Source: Asaia prunellae JCM 25354 (GTDB taxonomy: Bacteria > Pseudomonadota > Alphaproteobacteria > Acetobacterales > Acetobacteraceae). From it: a stretch of DNA of 64,000 bases. The notes under the pieces were generated by a model. The model was not told the origin of the DNA and did not search any database. It saw only the letters and a list, made by a program, of their open reading frames with translations. The position numbers and the translations under genes are program-made. Positions 9,638 through 47,089 of this stretch are shown one piece after another. The stretch covers positions 1 to 64,000 of the forward strand of contig NZ_BAJV01000002.1 in NCBI RefSeq assembly GCF_000613885.1, read 5' to 3'. Each line of letters begins with the position of its first letter. Within the stretch, counting starts at the first letter, position 1.

Positions 9638-10213
9638 GTGCTGACTGACCAGACAACCCGACGGCAGGTGCTGCGATCGCGTGTTCACAGGGCGCATGAG
9701 GAGCTTGACACCCTGATTGGCGCTCTTGAGACAAGCCGTGATTACAGGCGGTACCTGCGAGGTATGGCGGCGTTTCGTCTGGCGGCCGAGAGTGCGACTG
9801 ATGCGGCATTTTTTCCATCATGGTTGAAGGGATGGCGCCCGGTCTCAACGCGCGTTGCCTTGGAAAAGGATCTTGCCACTCTGAAACTGGCCCCTCTGTT
9901 CATGTCTGCAATAGCACCTCCCGATACGGAGTCAGCGCTTCTGGGTATGCTCTATACGCTCGAAGGGTCTGCCCTGGGTGCGCGTCTGATTGCCAAGCGC
10001 GCTGCCTTGCTTGGGTTTACTGAGGCACATGGAGCGAGCCATCTGGCGGTCCAGACCGGAACCCCCGGGAATTGGCGCGCGTTTCTTGACTTGTTGGAAG
10101 ATGCGCCGGTTTTCGAAGCCGAAGAGGCGGGGCGGGCTGCGTCTTCTCTCTTCGGGTTTGCATATAACGCCATGATCCTTGTGGATCGCGCAGGGGATGA
10201 AGTTCATGGCTGA
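9638..10213 (+). CDS. bphO: Biliverdin-producing heme oxygenase (BphO)
   Basis: 191 residues of the bacterial heme oxygenase family, which opens heme to biliverdin, the chromophore of bacteriophytochromes. A His in the first helix (SRVHRAHEELDTL) fits the proximal heme ligand, and the LYTLEGSALGARLIAKRAA segment fits the distal helix. The start is a GTG at 9638; an in-frame ATG is absent upstream, so either GTG is used or a base is missing near 9606-9637. The stop overlaps the start of the phytochrome gene, so supply of chromophore and apoprotein is coupled. Confidence 0.85.
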   Translation: MLTDQTTRRQVLRSRVHRAHEELDTLIGALETSRDYRRYLRGMAAFRLAAESATDAAFFPSWLKGWRPVSTRVALEKDLATLKLAPLFMSAIAPPDTESALLGMLYTLEGSALGARLIAKRAALLGFTEAHGASHLAVQTGTPGNWRAFLDLLEDAPVFEAEEAGRAASSLFGFAYNAMILVDRAGDEVHG

Positions 10214-12750
10214 GTTTGGTCAGGTTGATCTGACGAGTTGCGATCGTGAACCGATCCACTTACCCGGTAGCATCCAGCCGCATGGCTGCCTCGTAACCTG
10301 CTCGGTAAGCGATTTTGTTGTTCTGCGTCATTCTGCCAATGCACCCGATATGCTGGGGCAGGAGGGTCTGACGCTGGGCAGCAATCTCATTGAGCTTTTC
10401 GGCGCAGATATCATACATGACATCCGCAACGGACTCACCTTGAGTGTGACGCAGCGTCGTCCTGTTTTTCTGCTCAATCAGCTTCTGAGTGGAAACAGGC
10501 AATTCGATCTTGCTGTCCATATCGTCAATGGCGAGGTTGTCATTGAATGCGAACCTGCTTCTCCGACGCCTCGTGCTACCAAGTTTCTGACCCAGCTCCA
10601 TGGATGATGGACAGGGTACGCAAGACAACCGATATCACACGACTTTTCGATGTCGTGACCATGCTGATGCGTGGTCTGCTCGATTATGATCGGGTCATGG
10701 TCTATCGCTTTGCTGATGACTGGTCGGGCAAGGTGGTTTCCGAAGCGCGTGCCCTCTCTCTGGAGAGTTTTCTCGGGCAGCATTTTCCTAGTGCGGATAT
10801 ACCGGCTCAGGCACGTGAACTTTATCGGCGCTCACCCATACGCATGATTGGTGATGTCGGGTACACGCCTGTCCCGATGGTTGAGACTGAAGGGCTTTCC
10901 GCTCTGGACATGTCTCTTGGGCAATTACGCAGCGTATCGCCCATCCATTGCGAATATCTGACCAATATGGGTGTGCGGGCCTCCATGTCGATTTCGATCG
11001 TCATTGATGGTGCATTGTGGGGCATGATCGCCTGTCATCATTATTCTCCGCGCATTCTGCCAATCGCAGAACGTGCCGTGGTGCAGATGTTCTCGGAGTT
11101 CTTTGCCCTTCAGATCATTGTCATTCTCAAGACGACGCGATTGCAGGTGGCCGAACGCACACATGGACTTATCGAGAGTGTACTGCGTAACGCCGCCTCT
11201 GTGTCGGATATGCCTGCCTATCTGCGGGGGCAGATCAGCAGGCTGGCGCCTTTGATCCAGTCCGACGGTATCGCGATATGGATCGATAACGAATGGACAG
11301 GTCACGGTATCTCGGCTCCGAAAGACGTGCAGGATCAGTTTGTCGAGCTGGCTTTGAAAAAGGCCGGGACACAGATCTGGCAGTCTGACCACCTTGTTGA
11401 AGATCATCCATGGATTGCAGCGCATACGGCCCATGTGGCGGGTGTGCTGATCATACCGATCTCTCCTCAACCCCAGAATTATGTCTTCCTTTTCCGTCGT
11501 GAAATTGTTCAGACCATCAATTGGGGAGGCGATCCGCAAAAGACTTATGAACATGGTCCCCATGGCCCACGCCTGACGCCACGCCAGAGCTTTGCTATCT
11601 GGAAAGAGCAGGTGCATGAGCGATGCCTGCCATGGTCGAGTTTCGATATCGAGGCTGCTGCTCAGCTTCGTTCTGCGCTGATCGAGGTTATGGGTGTTTA
11701 CCATCAGCAGCAGCTTTCGGAACGTGCTGATGCTGATCTGCGTCAGCGTATGCTCAATGAAGAGCTTAATCACCGCGTCAAGAATATCCTGGCTGTAGTG
11801 CAGTCACTGATCGGGCGCCTGTGGATCGGGACCGGACGATCGAGGACTATGTCGAGGTCCTGCGCGGGCGGATAAAGGCACTTGCCAGTGCTCATGATCA
11901 GGTGGCCCGAAGCGATGGCGGTGGCCTGCTTCGTACTCTTCTCGAGGCTGAGCTCGAACCCTATCGGCATCAGCCTTCTGCGGTAGTGCTTGAAGGCGCC
12001 AATCTCTGGCTTTCAGGGCCGGCACTTTCGGTTGCGGCGCTGACATTGCACGAGCTGGCGACCAACGCTGCCAAATATGGTGCCCTGTCATTACCTGCCG
12101 GAACCTTGTCCGTAAGGTGGTTTCTGGACGAGGCGCAGGAAAACTGGGTGCTGGAATGGACAGAGACAGGTGGCCCGCCTGTCAAGCCTCCCAAGGGAAA
12201 TGGGTTTGGTTCGGTATTGCTCGAACGGGCGATACCCCATGAGCTGGGCGGGACGTCAATCCGCGAATTCCGCCCGGAAGGGTTGTTCATTCGTCTGACC
12301 TTCCCTGAAAGGCATGCTTTTCTGGTCTCCGAAGAGGAGGCAGAGCCTGTGTCAGAGGAGGCGCCTGCAGCGACAGCTGCCCAGACAGAACTTCTCCACG
12401 CCTCCTATGTCCTGCTCGTCGAAGACCAGCTTCTTATTGCCATGGAGACCGAACAGGCACTTGAGGCGTATGGTGTGCGTCATATTCGTACCGTTTCGTC
12501 AGTCTATGAGGCGGTGCAGGCTATTCGTGAACGCAGTCCCGATGTGGCTCTTCTTGATTTCAATCTGGGCAAGGAAAGCTCACAGGAAGTGGCCACTCTT
12601 TTGCGCAAGAGGGGTATCCCCTTCCTGTTTGCGACAGGCTATGCCGATCGCACCATGATTCCGCAGGAATTCCAGGACGTACCAGTACTGCGCAAGCCAT
12701 ATTCCATTACAAATGTGGTTCAGGAACTCCTCAAGATGCTTCCAAGCTGA
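10206..12750 (+). pseudogene. bphP: Bacteriophytochrome with HWE histidine kinase and C-terminal receiver, two 1-base deletions
   Basis: Red/far-red photoreceptor kinase. Order: PAS with biliverdin-binding Cys12 (DLTSCDREPIHLPGS), GAF with FPSADIPAQAR (the PASDIP region) and SPIHCEYLTNMGV, PHY with the tongue motif PRQSF, HWE kinase with H-box NHRVKNILAVVQ, N-box HELATNAAKYGAL and WTE, then a receiver with LLVEDQLL, phospho-acceptor Asp in VALLDFNL and Lys in VLRKPYS. The frame breaks at about 10600 (LTQLH should continue MMDRVRKTTDI) and at about 11818 (IGR should continue VDRDRTIEDY); each needs one added base, giving about 848 residues. Start at ATG 10206 behind AGGGG, overlapping the bphO stop. 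A kinase plus receiver in one chain suggests phosphate transfer to or from a further partner not seen here. Confidence 0.9.
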
Positions 12751-12786
12751 AAAGCACTACGGGTCGTCTTTTCGCACTTCACGAGG

Positions 12787-12806
12787 CAGCCGTCTGAAAA
12801 CGGCTG
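12787..12806 (+). terminator. Small hairpin after the phytochrome gene
   Basis: CAGCCGT and ACGGCTG form a 7-base perfect stem with a 6-base loop, 36 bases after the phytochrome stop. There is no T tract, so terminator function is uncertain. Confidence 0.3.
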
Positions 12807-12839
12807 AGCGTTGCGAAACGGCTATTTTCACGGGTAGGT

Positions 12840-12854
12840 GTTCTTGACTTGTTC
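12840..12854 (+). promoter_or_regulatory. Candidate LexA (SOS) box GTTC-N7-GTTC
   Basis: GTTCTTGACTTGTTC fits exactly the direct-repeat operator GTTC-N7-GTTC established for LexA of Alphaproteobacteria. It lies 24 bases upstream of the ATG at 12879, where it could cover the promoter (the spacer contains TTGACTT, a possible -35), and it precedes two genes whose domains belong to DNA repair. The match plus context make LexA control likely. Confidence 0.65.
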
Positions 12855-12878
12855 TGGTCCGCTTCCCATCTGTTGAGC

Positions 12879-14109
12879 ATGAAAAAGACCCTTGCTGCCC
12901 GTCTGGAAATCTTGTCGGATGCTGCCAAATATGACGCATCCTGTGCGTCCAGTGGGGTAAGCTCCAAGAAAAAGCCGGGTGAAGAAGGACTGGGGTCAAA
13001 AGCCTCGAACGGGATCTGCCACGCTTATACACCTGATGGGCGGTGTATTTCATTGCTCAAGATCCTGATGACCAATTTCTGTATCTATGATTGCGCTTAT
13101 TGCATCAACCGGTCTTCTTCCAAAATAGAACGTACGCGGTTTTCTGTAGAAGAGATCATATGGATTACGCTCGAATTCTACAGGCGCAACTATATCGAGG
13201 GGCTCTTTCTGTCTTCAGGCGTTATTCGTTCTTCCGATTACACCATGGAGGAAATGGTGCGTGTGGCGCGCGAGCTGCGCCTGAAACATCATTTCCACGG
13301 ATATATTCATCTCAAGACCATTCCGGACGCGGCTCCTCATTTGATTGAGGAGGCCGGGCTCTATGCTGATCGTTTGTCGATCAATGTCGAAATGCCGACT
13401 GACGATGGACTTGCGGCGTATGCACCCGAAAAGGATGCGGGTCATATACGACAGAGCATGGGAGCCTTGCGTCTCAAAATCGAGGAATCGGGAGATCGCA
13501 GCCTGACAGGTCGCAAGCCTCGCCGCTTTGCTCCCGGAGCAGAGCACACAAATGATTATCGGGGCTGATCACTCAACAGACCGCGATATTCTGCGTAGCT
13601 CCGCATCCCTTTATTCAGGTTATGCTTTACGGCGCGTCTATTATTCTGCGTTCAGTCCTATCCCGGATGCATCTCTTGCCTTGCCAGCCCAGTCGCCGCC
13701 GCTGCTTCGAGAGCATCGACTTTATCAAGCCGACTGGATGGTCCGTTTCTACGGATTCTCGTTTGACGAGATCGTGGCTCAGCGCGAGGACGGTATGCTT
13801 GATCTTGAGCTCGATCCGAAGCTTGCCTGGGCCTTGCAGAACCGCGCCCTGTTCCCTGTTGATCTGAACCGTGCCAGCCGTGAGATGTTATTGCGTGTTC
13901 CCGGGCTGGGGCCGCGTTCGGTAGCAGCCTTGCTTTCAGCCCGGCGCCATTGCGTTATCCGGCTGGAAGATGTGGAGCGACTGAAAGTCTCTTTGCGAAA
14001 GATCCGCCCTTTTATTGTTACGGCAGACTGGACGCCCGCGCGGCTTCTTGATCGTGGCAACCTTTCAGCTCTGTTCAGTCCACAGCCTCAGCAGCTCAGC
14101 CTGTTATGA
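12879..14109 (+). pseudogene. Putative DNA modification/repair radical SAM protein, frameshifted (net loss of two bases)
   Basis: Radical SAM protein of the family always paired with a DUF4130/UDG partner. The N-terminal part has the 4Fe-4S motif CIYDCAYC (C-x3-C-x2-C) after SLLKILMTNF, followed by the SAM-binding FLSSGVIRSSDYTMEEMVRV and the HLKTIPDA strand. The C-terminus contains helix-hairpin-helix DNA-binding sequence (VDLNRASREMLLRVPGLGPRSVAALL). The frame changes within 13530-13545, where RFAP should run into GQSTQMIIGAD; two missing bases (or one extra) restore about 410 residues. Start taken at ATG 12879. Its stop overlaps the start of the UdgX gene, and an SOS box lies upstream. The chemical reaction is not known for this family. 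Confidence 0.85.
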
Positions 14110-15608
14110 AGTACGTCCACCTTGCCTGCGATTCAGATTTTGACACATGGCGGGACCTCGCTCGTGCCTTGCTTGCTGAGGGCGTTGCCCCAGGTGAGGT
14201 CGAATGGAAAAGTGCGGATGAGGAACAGCCCGAGCTGTTTATGTCTGAAAGCGTGGTCGTCGATCGGAATACGGCCATTCAGTCGTGCCATACACCGGTA
14301 GGCCATGTTTCCAGGGCAGGGTTGGCTCTGCTTCGCATGATTTTGCGCCATCATGATCCGCAGCGTTTTGCATTGGGTTATCGTCTTTTATGGCGTTTGC
14401 AAAGGGAACCCGAGTTGCCTGCAATCGCGACCGACCCGGATATCCGTGAGGCAGCGCGCATGACGCACCAGATAAGGCGTGACATGCACAAGATGAAAGC
14501 CTTTCTGCGTTTTCGTGAGTCGAAGAGGGAAGGGGCGGAGGGGCGACGACAGTTTATTGCCTGGTTCGAGCCTGAAAATTACATCCTGGAAAGTGTGGCA
14601 CCGTTCTTTGCTGAACGTTTTTCGGACATGGACTGGATGATTCTGACGCCGATTGGCTCCATTCTTTTCGAGAGCGGGAAGACATTATGCGATCGGACGC
14701 CCTGTGCGCCGCCTGATCTCAGGGATGATGTCGAGACGCTCTGGCACAGCTATTATCAATCGATTTTCAATCCGGCGCGCATCAAGACAAAAGCGATGCG
14801 TTCCGAGATGCCGACGAAATACTGGAAGAACCTGCCGGAAACACGTCTGATTCCCCAGATGCTTGCTGATGCTGAAAATCGTGTTGCCGCGATGGTAGCG
14901 CTTCAGAATGATGGAAGAGCGCCTGCTTTTCACGCGCGTCACCAGGCAGAATGGCGCGAGAAGGAGGTTCTGGCTCAGGCAGAAGGGGAGGCGCTTACCG
15001 GCCTGCCGGCGCTTTCCCATGCATTGGAAACGTGTCAGCGCTGTGATTTGTGCCGCTATGCGACCCAGAGTGTACCTGGAAAGGGCCCCGATAATGCGGC
15101 GCTGATGCTGGTGGGCGAGCAGCCTGGTGATCAGGAAGATCTTCAGGGTATCCCATTTGTCGGTCCTGCGGGGAAAGTTCTGGATCGGATCCTGTCAGAG
15201 GTCGGGATTGATCGGCAAGACGTCTATCTGACCAATGCAGTCAAACACTTCAAGTTTGTCTCGAAGGGTCGTCGTCGCATTCATCAGACGCCGGGACGTG
15301 CCGAAATCGTGGCCTGTTCCTCTTGGCTGCAACAGGAAATCGGACTTGTCAGACCCAGGCTGATCGTCACTCTTGGAGCGACGGCGCTCCAGGCTGTGGA
15401 AGGGCGTGTCAGTCGCCTCGGTGACATGAGGGGGTATGTCCGTGACGGAAATGAAAGGCGCCCGGCCAGTCTGGCCACGATCCATCCCTCCTACCTCCTC
15501 CGTCTGCCGGAACCGGAAAGGGCCCGTGAGGAGGAGAGACGCTTTGCTCAGGAGCTTGTCATCGCGCGGGATTGGCTCGCCACGTACCAAGAGCAGGTTT
15601 CAGGCTGA
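14106..15608 (+). CDS. DUF4130 - UdgX-type uracil-DNA glycosylase fusion
   Basis: 500 residues. Residues 1 to about 260 are the DUF4130 domain typical of the radical-SAM partner; residues from about 300 form a 4Fe-4S uracil-DNA glycosylase. Cys310, Cys313 and probably Cys316 and Cys404 could hold the cluster. Motif A is GEQPGDQED (337-345), followed by FVGPAGKVLDRIL. The loop KGRRRIH (387-393) matches the KRRIH insertion that defines UdgX, whose His attacks the sugar and leaves the enzyme covalently bound to the uracil site. Motif B is IHPSYLLRLP. ATGA overlap with the radical SAM gene shows translational coupling. Intact frame. Probably SOS-induced with its partner. Confidence 0.9.
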   Translation: MKYVHLACDSDFDTWRDLARALLAEGVAPGEVEWKSADEEQPELFMSESVVVDRNTAIQSCHTPVGHVSRAGLALLRMILRHHDPQRFALGYRLLWRLQREPELPAIATDPDIREAARMTHQIRRDMHKMKAFLRFRESKREGAEGRRQFIAWFEPENYILESVAPFFAERFSDMDWMILTPIGSILFESGKTLCDRTPCAPPDLRDDVETLWHSYYQSIFNPARIKTKAMRSEMPTKYWKNLPETRLIPQMLADAENRVAAMVALQNDGRAPAFHARHQAEWREKEVLAQAEGEALTGLPALSHALETCQRCDLCRYATQSVPGKGPDNAALMLVGEQPGDQEDLQGIPFVGPAGKVLDRILSEVGIDRQDVYLTNAVKHFKFVSKGRRRIHQTPGRAEIVACSSWLQQEIGLVRPRLIVTLGATALQAVEGRVSRLGDMRGYVRDGNERRPASLATIHPSYLLRLPEPERAREEERRFAQELVIARDWLATYQEQVSG

Positions 15609-32119: not shown

Positions 32120-32210
32120 TCGCGAAACACTTTCGTTCTTTGCTAGTTCAAACGAGGCTATCGGCAGTTCGTGCCAGCCTTTACAAAACATAAAGTTAGA
32201 GGTCTTTACC

Positions 32211-46372: not shown

Positions 46373-47089
46373 CTCAGCTGCTGGGGGGGAGGGTCATTCC
46401 TGCTTGTTCTTCCGAAGAAGGTAGATGAATCTGAATTCCATTAGTTATTTCGCATTGATGTTGGGCTGGATTACGCCGTCTGTTTTCACTGCCCAATAAT
46501 AAGCGCGCGCGGCGGGAGAACAGGGATGATACGTTAGGCAGGCAGGTGTCGAACTCGTCCGTCGATGAGATAGTCAACGTGATACGCTGAGATCAGCTCG
46601 GCAAACTGGCGCGGTTTGATGATCGATGGAGAACGATCGCCAGGAAAACAGCTACGGGCAAGGGTGCCAGGAGCTACCAGTTGCTCATTACGAGGCTTCA
46701 GGAAACTGTAATTTGATGAATTCACGGTTCTTCCAATCTGCTATAGGCTTGGCAGAACTACTTGGCCTGCATAATAGAAATAGAGTAATTTTCTAATTTT
46801 CTATACTTATAAAAATTCTATATTTTAATTAAATATCGATCAATTTTGGTATTAAGCATGGTCTGAAGGTGTCTCAGGGCAATTATTCTAACCCACTCGG
46901 CAGAGGGGAGGTTAAGCGGTGCCCAGTGTCAGCATAAAATTATGATGGCCAGACAGACTGATTTCGTGCTAAAGAATAAGAACAATGCATGAACATATAA
47001 TTCTGTATTGCGTGATGCATCTGGTCAATTCCTGAACGGATTGGCTTGTTTTTGGCTAGTGGCATGAGCAAGTGTGCTGGATAAGGCAT
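46373..47089. other. Gene-poor, partly AT-rich stretch of the island
   Basis: About 700 bases. Short open frames (46374-46577 and 46534-46725, minus) may be debris of the restriction locus but have no clear family match. 46740-46860 is very AT-rich. Nothing else recognised. Confidence 0.4.

Follow-up and report, generated by a model that had tools for sequence, protein, structure and literature searches.

In Asaia prunellae JCM 25354, a radical SAM gene is followed by a gene encoding a DUF4130-UdgX fusion, behind a sequence resembling a LexA operator. The locus thereby raises the question of whether this operon belongs to the SOS response and, if so, which of its proteins lies at its core. 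It was studied in a window (the whole stretch of DNA analysed) of 64,000 nt, which corresponds to positions 1-64,000 of the forward strand of NZ_BAJV01000002.1 (assembly GCF_000613885.1), and all features given with coordinates lie on the plus strand. A preliminary description of this DNA had proposed an operator box, the order of the genes and their ATGA overlap, all of which stood, and helix-hairpin-helix (HhH) motifs, which did so in part. It had overlooked that the radical SAM gene is frameshifted.

A putative LexA operator ahead of the radical SAM gene

The exact GTTC-N7-GTTC sequence GTTCTTGACTTGTTC (12840..12854) lies ahead of the radical SAM gene as had been described, with 24 bases separating it from the ATG at 12879. 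Counting such boxes was rejected as stand-alone evidence, since 96 exact matches occur genome-wide against 85 for a reversed-pattern control; the window holds five versus 1.8 expected, a number reached by 2 of 100 shuffles. What sets the box apart, and makes it meaningful, is its position and conservation. When nine Asaia genomes are aligned, it is invariant at 15/15 positions, versus 1/81 positions 5' of it, and it is identical and at the same distance from the ATG in all nine. Of 80 loci taken from named genomes, 75 have an exact box within 150 nt (against 15/3743 windows of 150 nt drawn at random from these loci). An exact box was likewise found in 21 of the 25 genomes carrying the gene in a first set of relatives (the window's own included) and at all 25 same-class loci of a sample of the phylum. 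These sets overlap, at least two genomes of the 80-locus set and one of the 25 same-class loci (G047) being also in the first relatives set. A second piece of one genome (L026, from G006) was left out of the box count in the latter set, and five repeats (L153-L157, of L111, L132, L136, L139 and L140) were left out of the counts. The exact box is missing at 4/25 loci of the first relatives set and at 5/80 named-genome loci, the scan of which showed no GTTC box in Xanthomonas dyei (L109).

The type of operator changes between classes. Seventeen genomes come from other classes of the phylum (we take them to be Beta- or Gammaproteobacteria), and none showed a GTTC box in the 150 nt upstream of the gene. 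CTG-N10-CAG, presumably the LexA operator type of these bacteria, was found within 60 nt in 15 of the 17 (114/4800 random windows) and was missing within that distance at the other two loci, while the tighter CTGT-N8-ACAG was found in 12/17 (26/4800 random windows). Together with the C-terminal tails discussed below, operators were read in 42 of the 52 genomes of the phylum sample with a radical SAM gene (17/17 from other classes and 25/35 from the same class). As for the SOS regulon itself, lexA carries an exact GTTC-N7-GTTC box in each of three Asaia genomes (G000, G003 and G005), and recA of Asaia has only a box with one mismatch, in G000 and G005. The box is thus real, and a putative operator to which LexA would bind. 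Its presence upstream of orthologues, in Asaia as in the named genomes, was one of the points on which the preliminary description had staked its SOS-operon reading, which survived and is now well supported.

The operator may also overlap the promoter. TTGACT (12844..12849), a possible -35 element, lies within it and is invariant in the nine Asaia genomes. It is followed after 16 nt by CCAT(C/T)T (12866..12871), a possible -10 element, and all five invariant positions of the 24 nt between box and ATG fall in this region. As a simple sigma-70 promoter scan of 12750-12900 returned no site, this proposal is drawn from conservation only. The candidate -10 would place the start of the transcript at about the ATG, which makes a leaderless mRNA possible.

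A split gene for a radical SAM protein with a clamp-type tail

The frame opened by the ATG at 12879 runs into a stop at 13568, and the remainder of the gene is found in another frame (13528-14109). The 5' part (12879..13568) matches positions 2-218 of TIGR03916 with 330.3 bits and, over residues 1-225, shares 97% identity with the protein of G003. The 3' part (13528..14109), which contains the HhH hairpin, matches positions 216-380 with 206.6 bits and is 92% identical to G003. The frameshift is why these halves were scored apart against a cut-off of 343.5 bits, while the orthologue of Asaia lannensis scores 552.7 bits. In tblastn with three Asaia relatives the switch of frame occurs at 13540..13553, and judged by eye against four Asaia relatives the site is two bases short.

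Could this be a true pseudogene in a strain in which the pathway is decaying? The frameshift, its stop and a phytochrome gene just upstream that is broken as well would fit, but the assembly's recA is split too, suggesting indel errors, and the operator and both protein halves are well conserved. Furthermore, 24 other genomes carry the gene, and the sole broken copy among them (G006) is interrupted at a different place; we regard decay as quite unlikely. A sequencing or assembly error is most likely, since recA and the phytochrome gene are also disrupted in this assembly. A programmed frameshift was rejected because the gene is one open frame in 23 of the 25 genomes carrying it (a list that leaves out L001, L012 and L026) and the only other break is elsewhere.

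The protein has the CX3CX2C motif of radical SAM enzymes, which binds a [4Fe-4S] cluster (CIYDCAYC, 13080..13103), and all three cysteines were found in 149/149 homologues, a set that was not thinned; a broken gene (L092) was left out of this cysteine count but of no other. Three additional N-terminal cysteines, C22, C47 and C56 (region 12942..13046), are nearly invariant, each being kept in 148/149 aligned homologues, and mark a possible second metal site, a candidate for the second Fe-S cluster of auxiliary-cluster radical SAM enzymes. Towards the C-terminus lies the HhH region (VPGLG, 13858..13947). Its PGLG hairpin is present, but the Pfam models HHH_3 and HHH_5 both reach 20.7 bits, below their 27-bit cut-offs, and searching with a profile of eight relatives brought up ComEA and RuvA chains as weak matches (E 0.02-0.6).

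A structural model of the protein has radical SAM enzymes of many chemistries as its Foldseek neighbours (80 matches at E <= 0.001), the best 50 of which include viperin, which acts on a nucleotide, and the methylthiotransferases RimO and MiaB. Such neighbours would be compatible with an enzyme that modifies undamaged DNA bases or the nucleotide pool rather than lesions, as would the family name, which reads 'modification/repair', and the suggestion in a passage of PMC3765255 that the linked enzymes might modify thymines. Family searches, however, returned no nucleotide-handling domain, and the conservation of a LexA-type operator over classes points to damage, which makes this scenario very unlikely in our eyes. 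That the enzyme acts instead on damaged DNA is what we infer from the sub-cut-off HhH region, the UdgX fusion and SOS control.

ImuB, DinB and UmuC, which are LexA-controlled in many bacteria, carry a motif for binding the beta sliding clamp. These proteins are polymerases or relatives of polymerases, whereas here a motif of this type is carried by a radical SAM enzyme, for which clamp binding is predicted. The C-terminal motif, QLSLL (14092..14106), had been overlooked in the preliminary description. Among 139 homologues with distinct last 60 residues (close relatives included), 122 have Q[LM]xL[FLWI] within the last 16 residues and 136 have a looser pattern, compared with 0.6% (strict) and 3.1% (loose) for shuffled tails and with 1/519 and 3/519 for the other ORFs of the same loci, from which a homology filter had removed radical SAM ORFs. 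At five loci of Bacteroidota, Bacillota and Gemmatimonadota, two proteins terminate in QLSLF or QLSLFDSA, a third carries QLSLW 21 residues ahead of its C-terminus, and the remaining two show QLILPF and QLSIF as variants. Only two of the five thus fit the stated patterns in their last 16 residues. The tail is conserved from phylum to phylum, unlike the variable stretch preceding it, and in the structural model residues 407-410 have a confidence below 50, as expected of a flexible tail. In a passage of a review, the clamp motif is given as QL(S/D)LF at C-termini (PMC9690074). The QLSLL tail therefore probably binds the beta sliding clamp, although a five-residue motif can mislead.

DUF4130 as the constant partner, UdgX as an optional one

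The second gene (14106..15608) starts within the end of the first, its ATG at 14106 overlapping the TGA at 14107-14109, which bears out the ATGA coupling described for this locus. Both its domains score above their cut-offs. DUF4130 (14124..14843) matches TIGR03915 with 211.7 bits (cut-off 112.25) and the Pfam DUF4130 family with 128 (cut-off 27). UdgX (14847..15560) matches TIGR03914 with 280.4 bits (cut-off 189.95). For the fold of DUF4130, Foldseek gave no match at E <= 0.001, and its top rows, DHH phosphoesterases (PAP phosphatase and family II pyrophosphatases) at E 0.013 or worse and a TM score of about 0.3 or less, were not used. Aligned with the M. smegmatis UdgX chain 6ajo_A (E 1.1e-49), the UdgX domain shares all three motifs, namely motif A GEQPG (15114..15128), the (K/R)RRIH R-loop (RRRIH, 15270..15284; RRIH in the motif shared with 6ajo_A) and HPSxLLR, whose HPS is common to both. 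The histidine of the R-loop (15282-15284) corresponds to H109, which cross-links to DNA through a covalent His-C1' bond in the account given in a passage of PMC10359453. By this correspondence, the UdgX domain is predicted to capture abasic DNA covalently. In the M. smegmatis structure the chain is a 209-residue UDG domain, whereas here it is fused behind DUF4130, in a gene overlapping that of the radical SAM protein.

Which of the three is the core of the system is best seen from their distribution. Of the 299 genomes sampled from the phylum, 52 have the radical SAM gene above cut-off, and every one of these 52 also has DUF4130 above cut-off. UdgX was above cut-off in 39 and absent from 13, and 12 further genomes have it while lacking the radical SAM gene. 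At the named-genome loci, DUF4130 is downstream on the same strand in 80/80 and, by alignment range, fused to UdgX in 70/80. It is not always adjacent to the radical SAM gene, being about 1.3 kb off in L055 and about 3 kb off in G286 and G298. Radical SAM and DUF4130 form the conserved core, and UdgX is optional. The UdgX-centred view of the preliminary description therefore has to be revised, the constant partner being DUF4130.

This bears on two other explanations. The operon might be an ordinary SOS base-excision system in which UdgX is the main worker, on uracil from error-prone synthesis, with radical SAM and DUF4130 as helpers and a QLSLF tail that is fortuitous or structural. The frequent fusion of DUF4130 to UdgX would suit this, as would a passage of PMC8565304 describing COG1573-COG4277 as a UDG-based repair operon of two genes, within the SOS network inferred for Bacteroidetes. 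We nevertheless consider it unlikely in view of the constancy of the other pair, the 13 genomes without UdgX, the 12 in which UdgX occurs by itself and a tail conserved across phyla next to a variable stretch. Alternatively, UdgX might shield abasic sites and the radical SAM-DUF4130 pair remove or reset the covalent UdgX-DNA cross-link, thus freeing it. The existence of the His-C1' bond, the overlap of the two genes and a location at the clamp, which would suit post-replicative removal, are all in keeping with this idea, but it is very unlikely given that in the same 13 genomes the pair has no UdgX above cut-off and that in the same 12 UdgX has no radical SAM gene.

A possible mechanism and its relation to known systems

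All three families are already named in NCBIfam (TIGR03916, TIGR03915 and TIGR03914), and a passage of PMC8565304 notes earlier reports of such a system under SOS regulation in Verrucomicrobia and Alphaproteobacteria. The gene set TIGR03916 (COG4277), TIGR03915 and TIGR03914 has the same families and operon there, and its gene content is no different here. Since SOS control of the COG1573-COG4277 pair is already published, the operon is not new in kind, and what may be new are the C-terminal QLSLL tail and the three extra cysteines of the radical SAM protein. In the literature searched (a partial search with few subscription papers), no description of a clamp-type tail, extra cysteines or an overlap of -35 and operator was found. 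The suggestion that the locus holds undescribed biology is upheld for the chemistry and substrate of the radical SAM/DUF4130 pair, for which that literature yielded none, but not for the families or their SOS control. In a passage of PMC3765255, DUF4130 is connected to UDGs and to radical SAM proteins resembling SplB. Neither the first half of the gene in the window nor the A. lannensis protein had an SplB model among its NCBIfam hits at E <= 0.001, and no SplB structure was among the best 50 of the 80 Foldseek matches of the radical SAM model. Compared with spore photoproduct lyase, the HhH region and the clamp-type tail are features of the protein described here.

The reading we favour, and hold to be fairly probable, is that of an SOS-induced radical SAM enzyme, recruited by the clamp and acting on damaged DNA with DUF4130 as its partner and UdgX as a cap where present. 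It draws on what was computed here, i.e. the conservation of the operator and its class-wise change of type, the co-occurrence of radical SAM and DUF4130, the UdgX motifs and the conservation of tail and cysteines. LexA would sit on the GTTC-N7-GTTC operator, probably covering the -35 region. Once made, the radical SAM protein would probably be brought to replication forks or gaps by binding of its QLSLL tail to the beta sliding clamp, and its HhH region would hold the DNA. The SAM-bound 4Fe-4S cluster would then attack the damaged base, perhaps aided by a second cluster on the three N-terminal cysteines, and DUF4130 would act in this step or the next, the order of steps being itself presumed. 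Where fused UdgX is present, it would cut out a uracil-like product and then cover the abasic site through a covalent bond of the R-loop histidine. Such a hand-off could not be general, because UdgX is missing in some genomes with the radical SAM gene and present in others without it.

In a fuller version, which we advance tentatively and with some doubt, the radical SAM enzyme would have a second metal cluster near its N-terminus and would ride the sliding clamp, repairing or rewriting damaged bases in situ during the SOS response, with DUF4130 constant and UdgX an optional covalent cap. Found in several phyla, it would be the first radical SAM DNA enzyme to be tethered to the clamp. The gene pair is widespread, and most of the loci examined have a LexA-type operator; the radical SAM-DUF4130 core, rather than UdgX, becomes the focus. 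If the tail binds the clamp, the enzyme would be placed at the replication fork and the role of radical SAM/DUF4130 would become testable; radical chemistry would thus join the repair activities recruited by the clamp.

Two other origins were considered for the operon and set aside. No PADLOC family was found that would indicate a defence system. As for phage, the radical SAM protein has no PHROG match and the UdgX part has one weak match of unknown function (E 3.1e-5), while viral contigs contained two relatives of the radical SAM protein and none of DUF4130. In control searches, the laboratory model Caulobacter was matched by all three families, with TIGR03915 being the only one above cut-off for certain.

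The operon and its operator

Judged from its sequence, the locus appears to be a real SOS operon, under strong conservation and of a type already known. As the preliminary description had it, an exact GTTC-N7-GTTC, the LexA-type operator (GTTCTTGACTTGTTC, 12840-12854), lies 24 bases ahead of the ATG (12879) of a radical SAM gene, which matches NCBIfam TIGR03916. The ATGA coupling that it described to a DUF4130-UdgX fusion was recovered too: the two genes overlap by ATGA and the second (14106-15608) scores above cut-off for both TIGR03915 and TIGR03914. The closest named loci are those of Asaia lannensis and A. platycodi, and the relatives search found the radical SAM gene in all 8 other Asaia genomes, 92-97% identical over residues 1-225 in 7 of them and as two pieces (99% and 85% identity) in G006.

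By match count alone, this box is hardly above chance (96 exact occurrences genome-wide vs 85 for a reversed-pattern control), and it is conservation that puts it above. When nine Asaia genomes are set at the ATG, 15/15 positions are invariant in the box, 1/81 before it and 5/24 after it. The first set of relatives contains the gene in 25 genomes; 21 of these have an exact box, on either strand, starting at most 75 nt from the matched gene start, and none was found by this measure at L014, L016, L017 and L019. Of a further 80 named-genome loci (alphaproteobacterial by title except one Xanthomonas, and overlapping the first set by at least two genomes), 75 have an exact box within 150 nt, vs 15 of 3743 random windows from the same loci. 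All 25 alphaproteobacterial loci read from a sample of the phylum Pseudomonadota also have it, so that the conservation upstream of orthologues proposed as a check was borne out. None was seen at the 17 loci of other classes in this sample, 15 of which have instead CTG-N10-CAG within 60 nt (vs 114/4800 random windows), the Beta/Gammaproteobacterial LexA type. That a LexA-type site is kept while its type switches between classes argues strongly that SOS control of the gene pair is under selection. In the window's own assembly (G000) and in the Asaia genomes G003 and G005, lexA has an exact box ~70 nt upstream and recA a one-mismatch box, with an additional exact box at recA of G003. Two further exact matches lie in the window, at 32135-32149 (GTTCTTTGCTAGTTC) and 46980-46994 (GTTCATGCATTGTTC).

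The sole conserved stretch besides the box in the nine Asaia genomes is CCAT(C/T)T, 16 bases beyond a TTGACT within the box. These could be the -10 and -35 elements, respectively, which would place the transcript start at about the ATG; a simple promoter scan reported no promoter at this site.

The frameshift in the radical SAM gene

The preliminary description omitted a frameshift. The frame opened at 12879 ends at a stop at 13568 and the remainder (13528-14109) lies in another frame, the change falling at 13540-13553 against three Asaia relatives, where the window is, judged by eye, two bases shorter than four Asaia relatives. The frame is open in 23 of the 25 genomes having the gene (window genome included), the exceptions being the window genome and G006, which is broken at a different position. 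A sequencing or assembly error is a likelier cause than a real mutation, because in the same assembly recA is divided between two frames (G000:C21:8005-8966; L167, L170) and the bacteriophytochrome/HWE-kinase/response-regulator gene directly upstream of the operon (10179-12750) is spread over three, with two frameshifts against three Asaia relatives. Since recA is also divided in G003 (G003:C2:385676-386594; L168, L169) and whole in G005, its splitting looks like a sign of indel errors, and the radical SAM frameshift in the window's assembly is probably of this origin.

Partner proteins and published context

In the phylum sample, TIGR03916 scores above cut-off in 52/299 genomes. DUF4130 does so in all 52 and UdgX in 39 (as well as in 12 that lack the radical SAM gene), and the conserved core is thus radical SAM plus DUF4130. 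With the window genome and its split gene set aside, DUF4130 occurs without the radical SAM gene in three genomes (G257, G274 and G344); these belong to one genus, have no radical SAM match and in two of them a UdgX above cut-off adjoins DUF4130. At the named-genome loci, DUF4130 is on the same strand and downstream in 80/80 (farthest ~1.3 kb, L055) and, judged by alignment range, fused to UdgX in 70/80; in genomes G286 and G298 it lies ~3 kb away. The best Foldseek rows for a model of the window's DUF4130 part (14106-14846) were repeatedly DHH phosphoesterases, with E values from 0.013 upward and TM scores no higher than ~0.3. In the window's UdgX, GEQPG, RRRIH and HPSYLLR align with M. smegmatis UdgX, in which the covalent bond is made by an R-loop histidine according to excerpts of PMC10359453.

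Operons of this kind are already known. Excerpts of PMC8565304 describe COG1573-COG4277 as a two-gene repair operon in an inferred SOS network of Bacteroidetes, crediting the same regulation to one Verrucomicrobia and one Caulobacter paper, and those of PMC3765255 link DUF4130 to UDGs and SplB-like radical SAM proteins. The suggestion of undescribed biology therefore stands for the chemistry, on which the literature search found nothing, and falls for the operon itself. The terms radical SAM, operon and SOS are absent from the text of PMC10776899, on UDGX; an excerpt of PMC13130816 reports that the radical SAM gene of an Acinetobacter is raised upon desiccation.

Cysteines and C-terminal tail of the radical SAM protein

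CX3CX2C is present in all 149 aligned homologues, and C22, C47, H48 and C56 in 148, the exception by printed sequence being a divergent Gemmatirosa protein. A second metal site is suggested by the extra cysteines that precede the radical SAM motif. For the A. lannensis protein modelled with AlphaFold (mean pLDDT 81), the 50 structural matches listed include many radical SAM enzymes, among them MgmA, RimO, HydG, AprD4, biotin synthase, viperin, HydE and lipoyl synthase, and such a fold thus says nothing on chemistry.

The operon's most interesting feature, beyond the preliminary description, is a conserved tail of the beta-clamp-binding type on the radical SAM enzyme, which ends in QLSLL in the window. 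Q[LM]xL[FLWI] occurs within the last 16 residues of 122/139 distinct homologues and a looser form in 136/139, vs 0.6% and 3.1%, respectively, of shuffled tails, 1/519 and 3/519 other ORFs of the same loci, and 0/88 and 1/88 DUF4130/UdgX ORFs. The three misses of the looser form are L092 (a broken gene) and ends in QLSLAL and QPRLL. In motif-anchored tails, L stands at +1 in 110/143 and at +3 in 136/143, the anchor itself demanding Q and restricting both places. Of five loci from other phyla, only Spirosoma (ending in QLSLF) and Pusillibacter (ending in QLSLFDSA) match the patterns within 16 residues; Gemmatirosa has QLSLW 21 residues and Acetoanaerobium QLSIF 15 residues short of the C-terminus, and Parabacteroides has QLILPF close to it, QLxLPF being a longer form of the clamp motif. 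The bacterial motif is a C-terminal QL(S/D)LF tolerating much variation (excerpt of PMC9690074), and no report of it on this family appeared among the matches listed by searches for the family or for radical SAM enzymes in connection with the clamp. Together with the possible second metal site, this tail makes the old question of the operon's role testable.

An intact homologue ending in QLELFG (L174, 4833-6221) adjoins phage-like ORFs on a contig of a viral collection, in which a DUF4130 scan gave no match; it is perhaps a prophage edge. In a plasmid collection, the radical SAM gene is found in 158 records, 58 of them from Phaeobacter. The divergent Gemmatirosa homologue, which lies on a plasmid (L162, 36.8% identity), is without the three N-terminal cysteines and retains QLSLW near its end, and may represent a separate subfamily.
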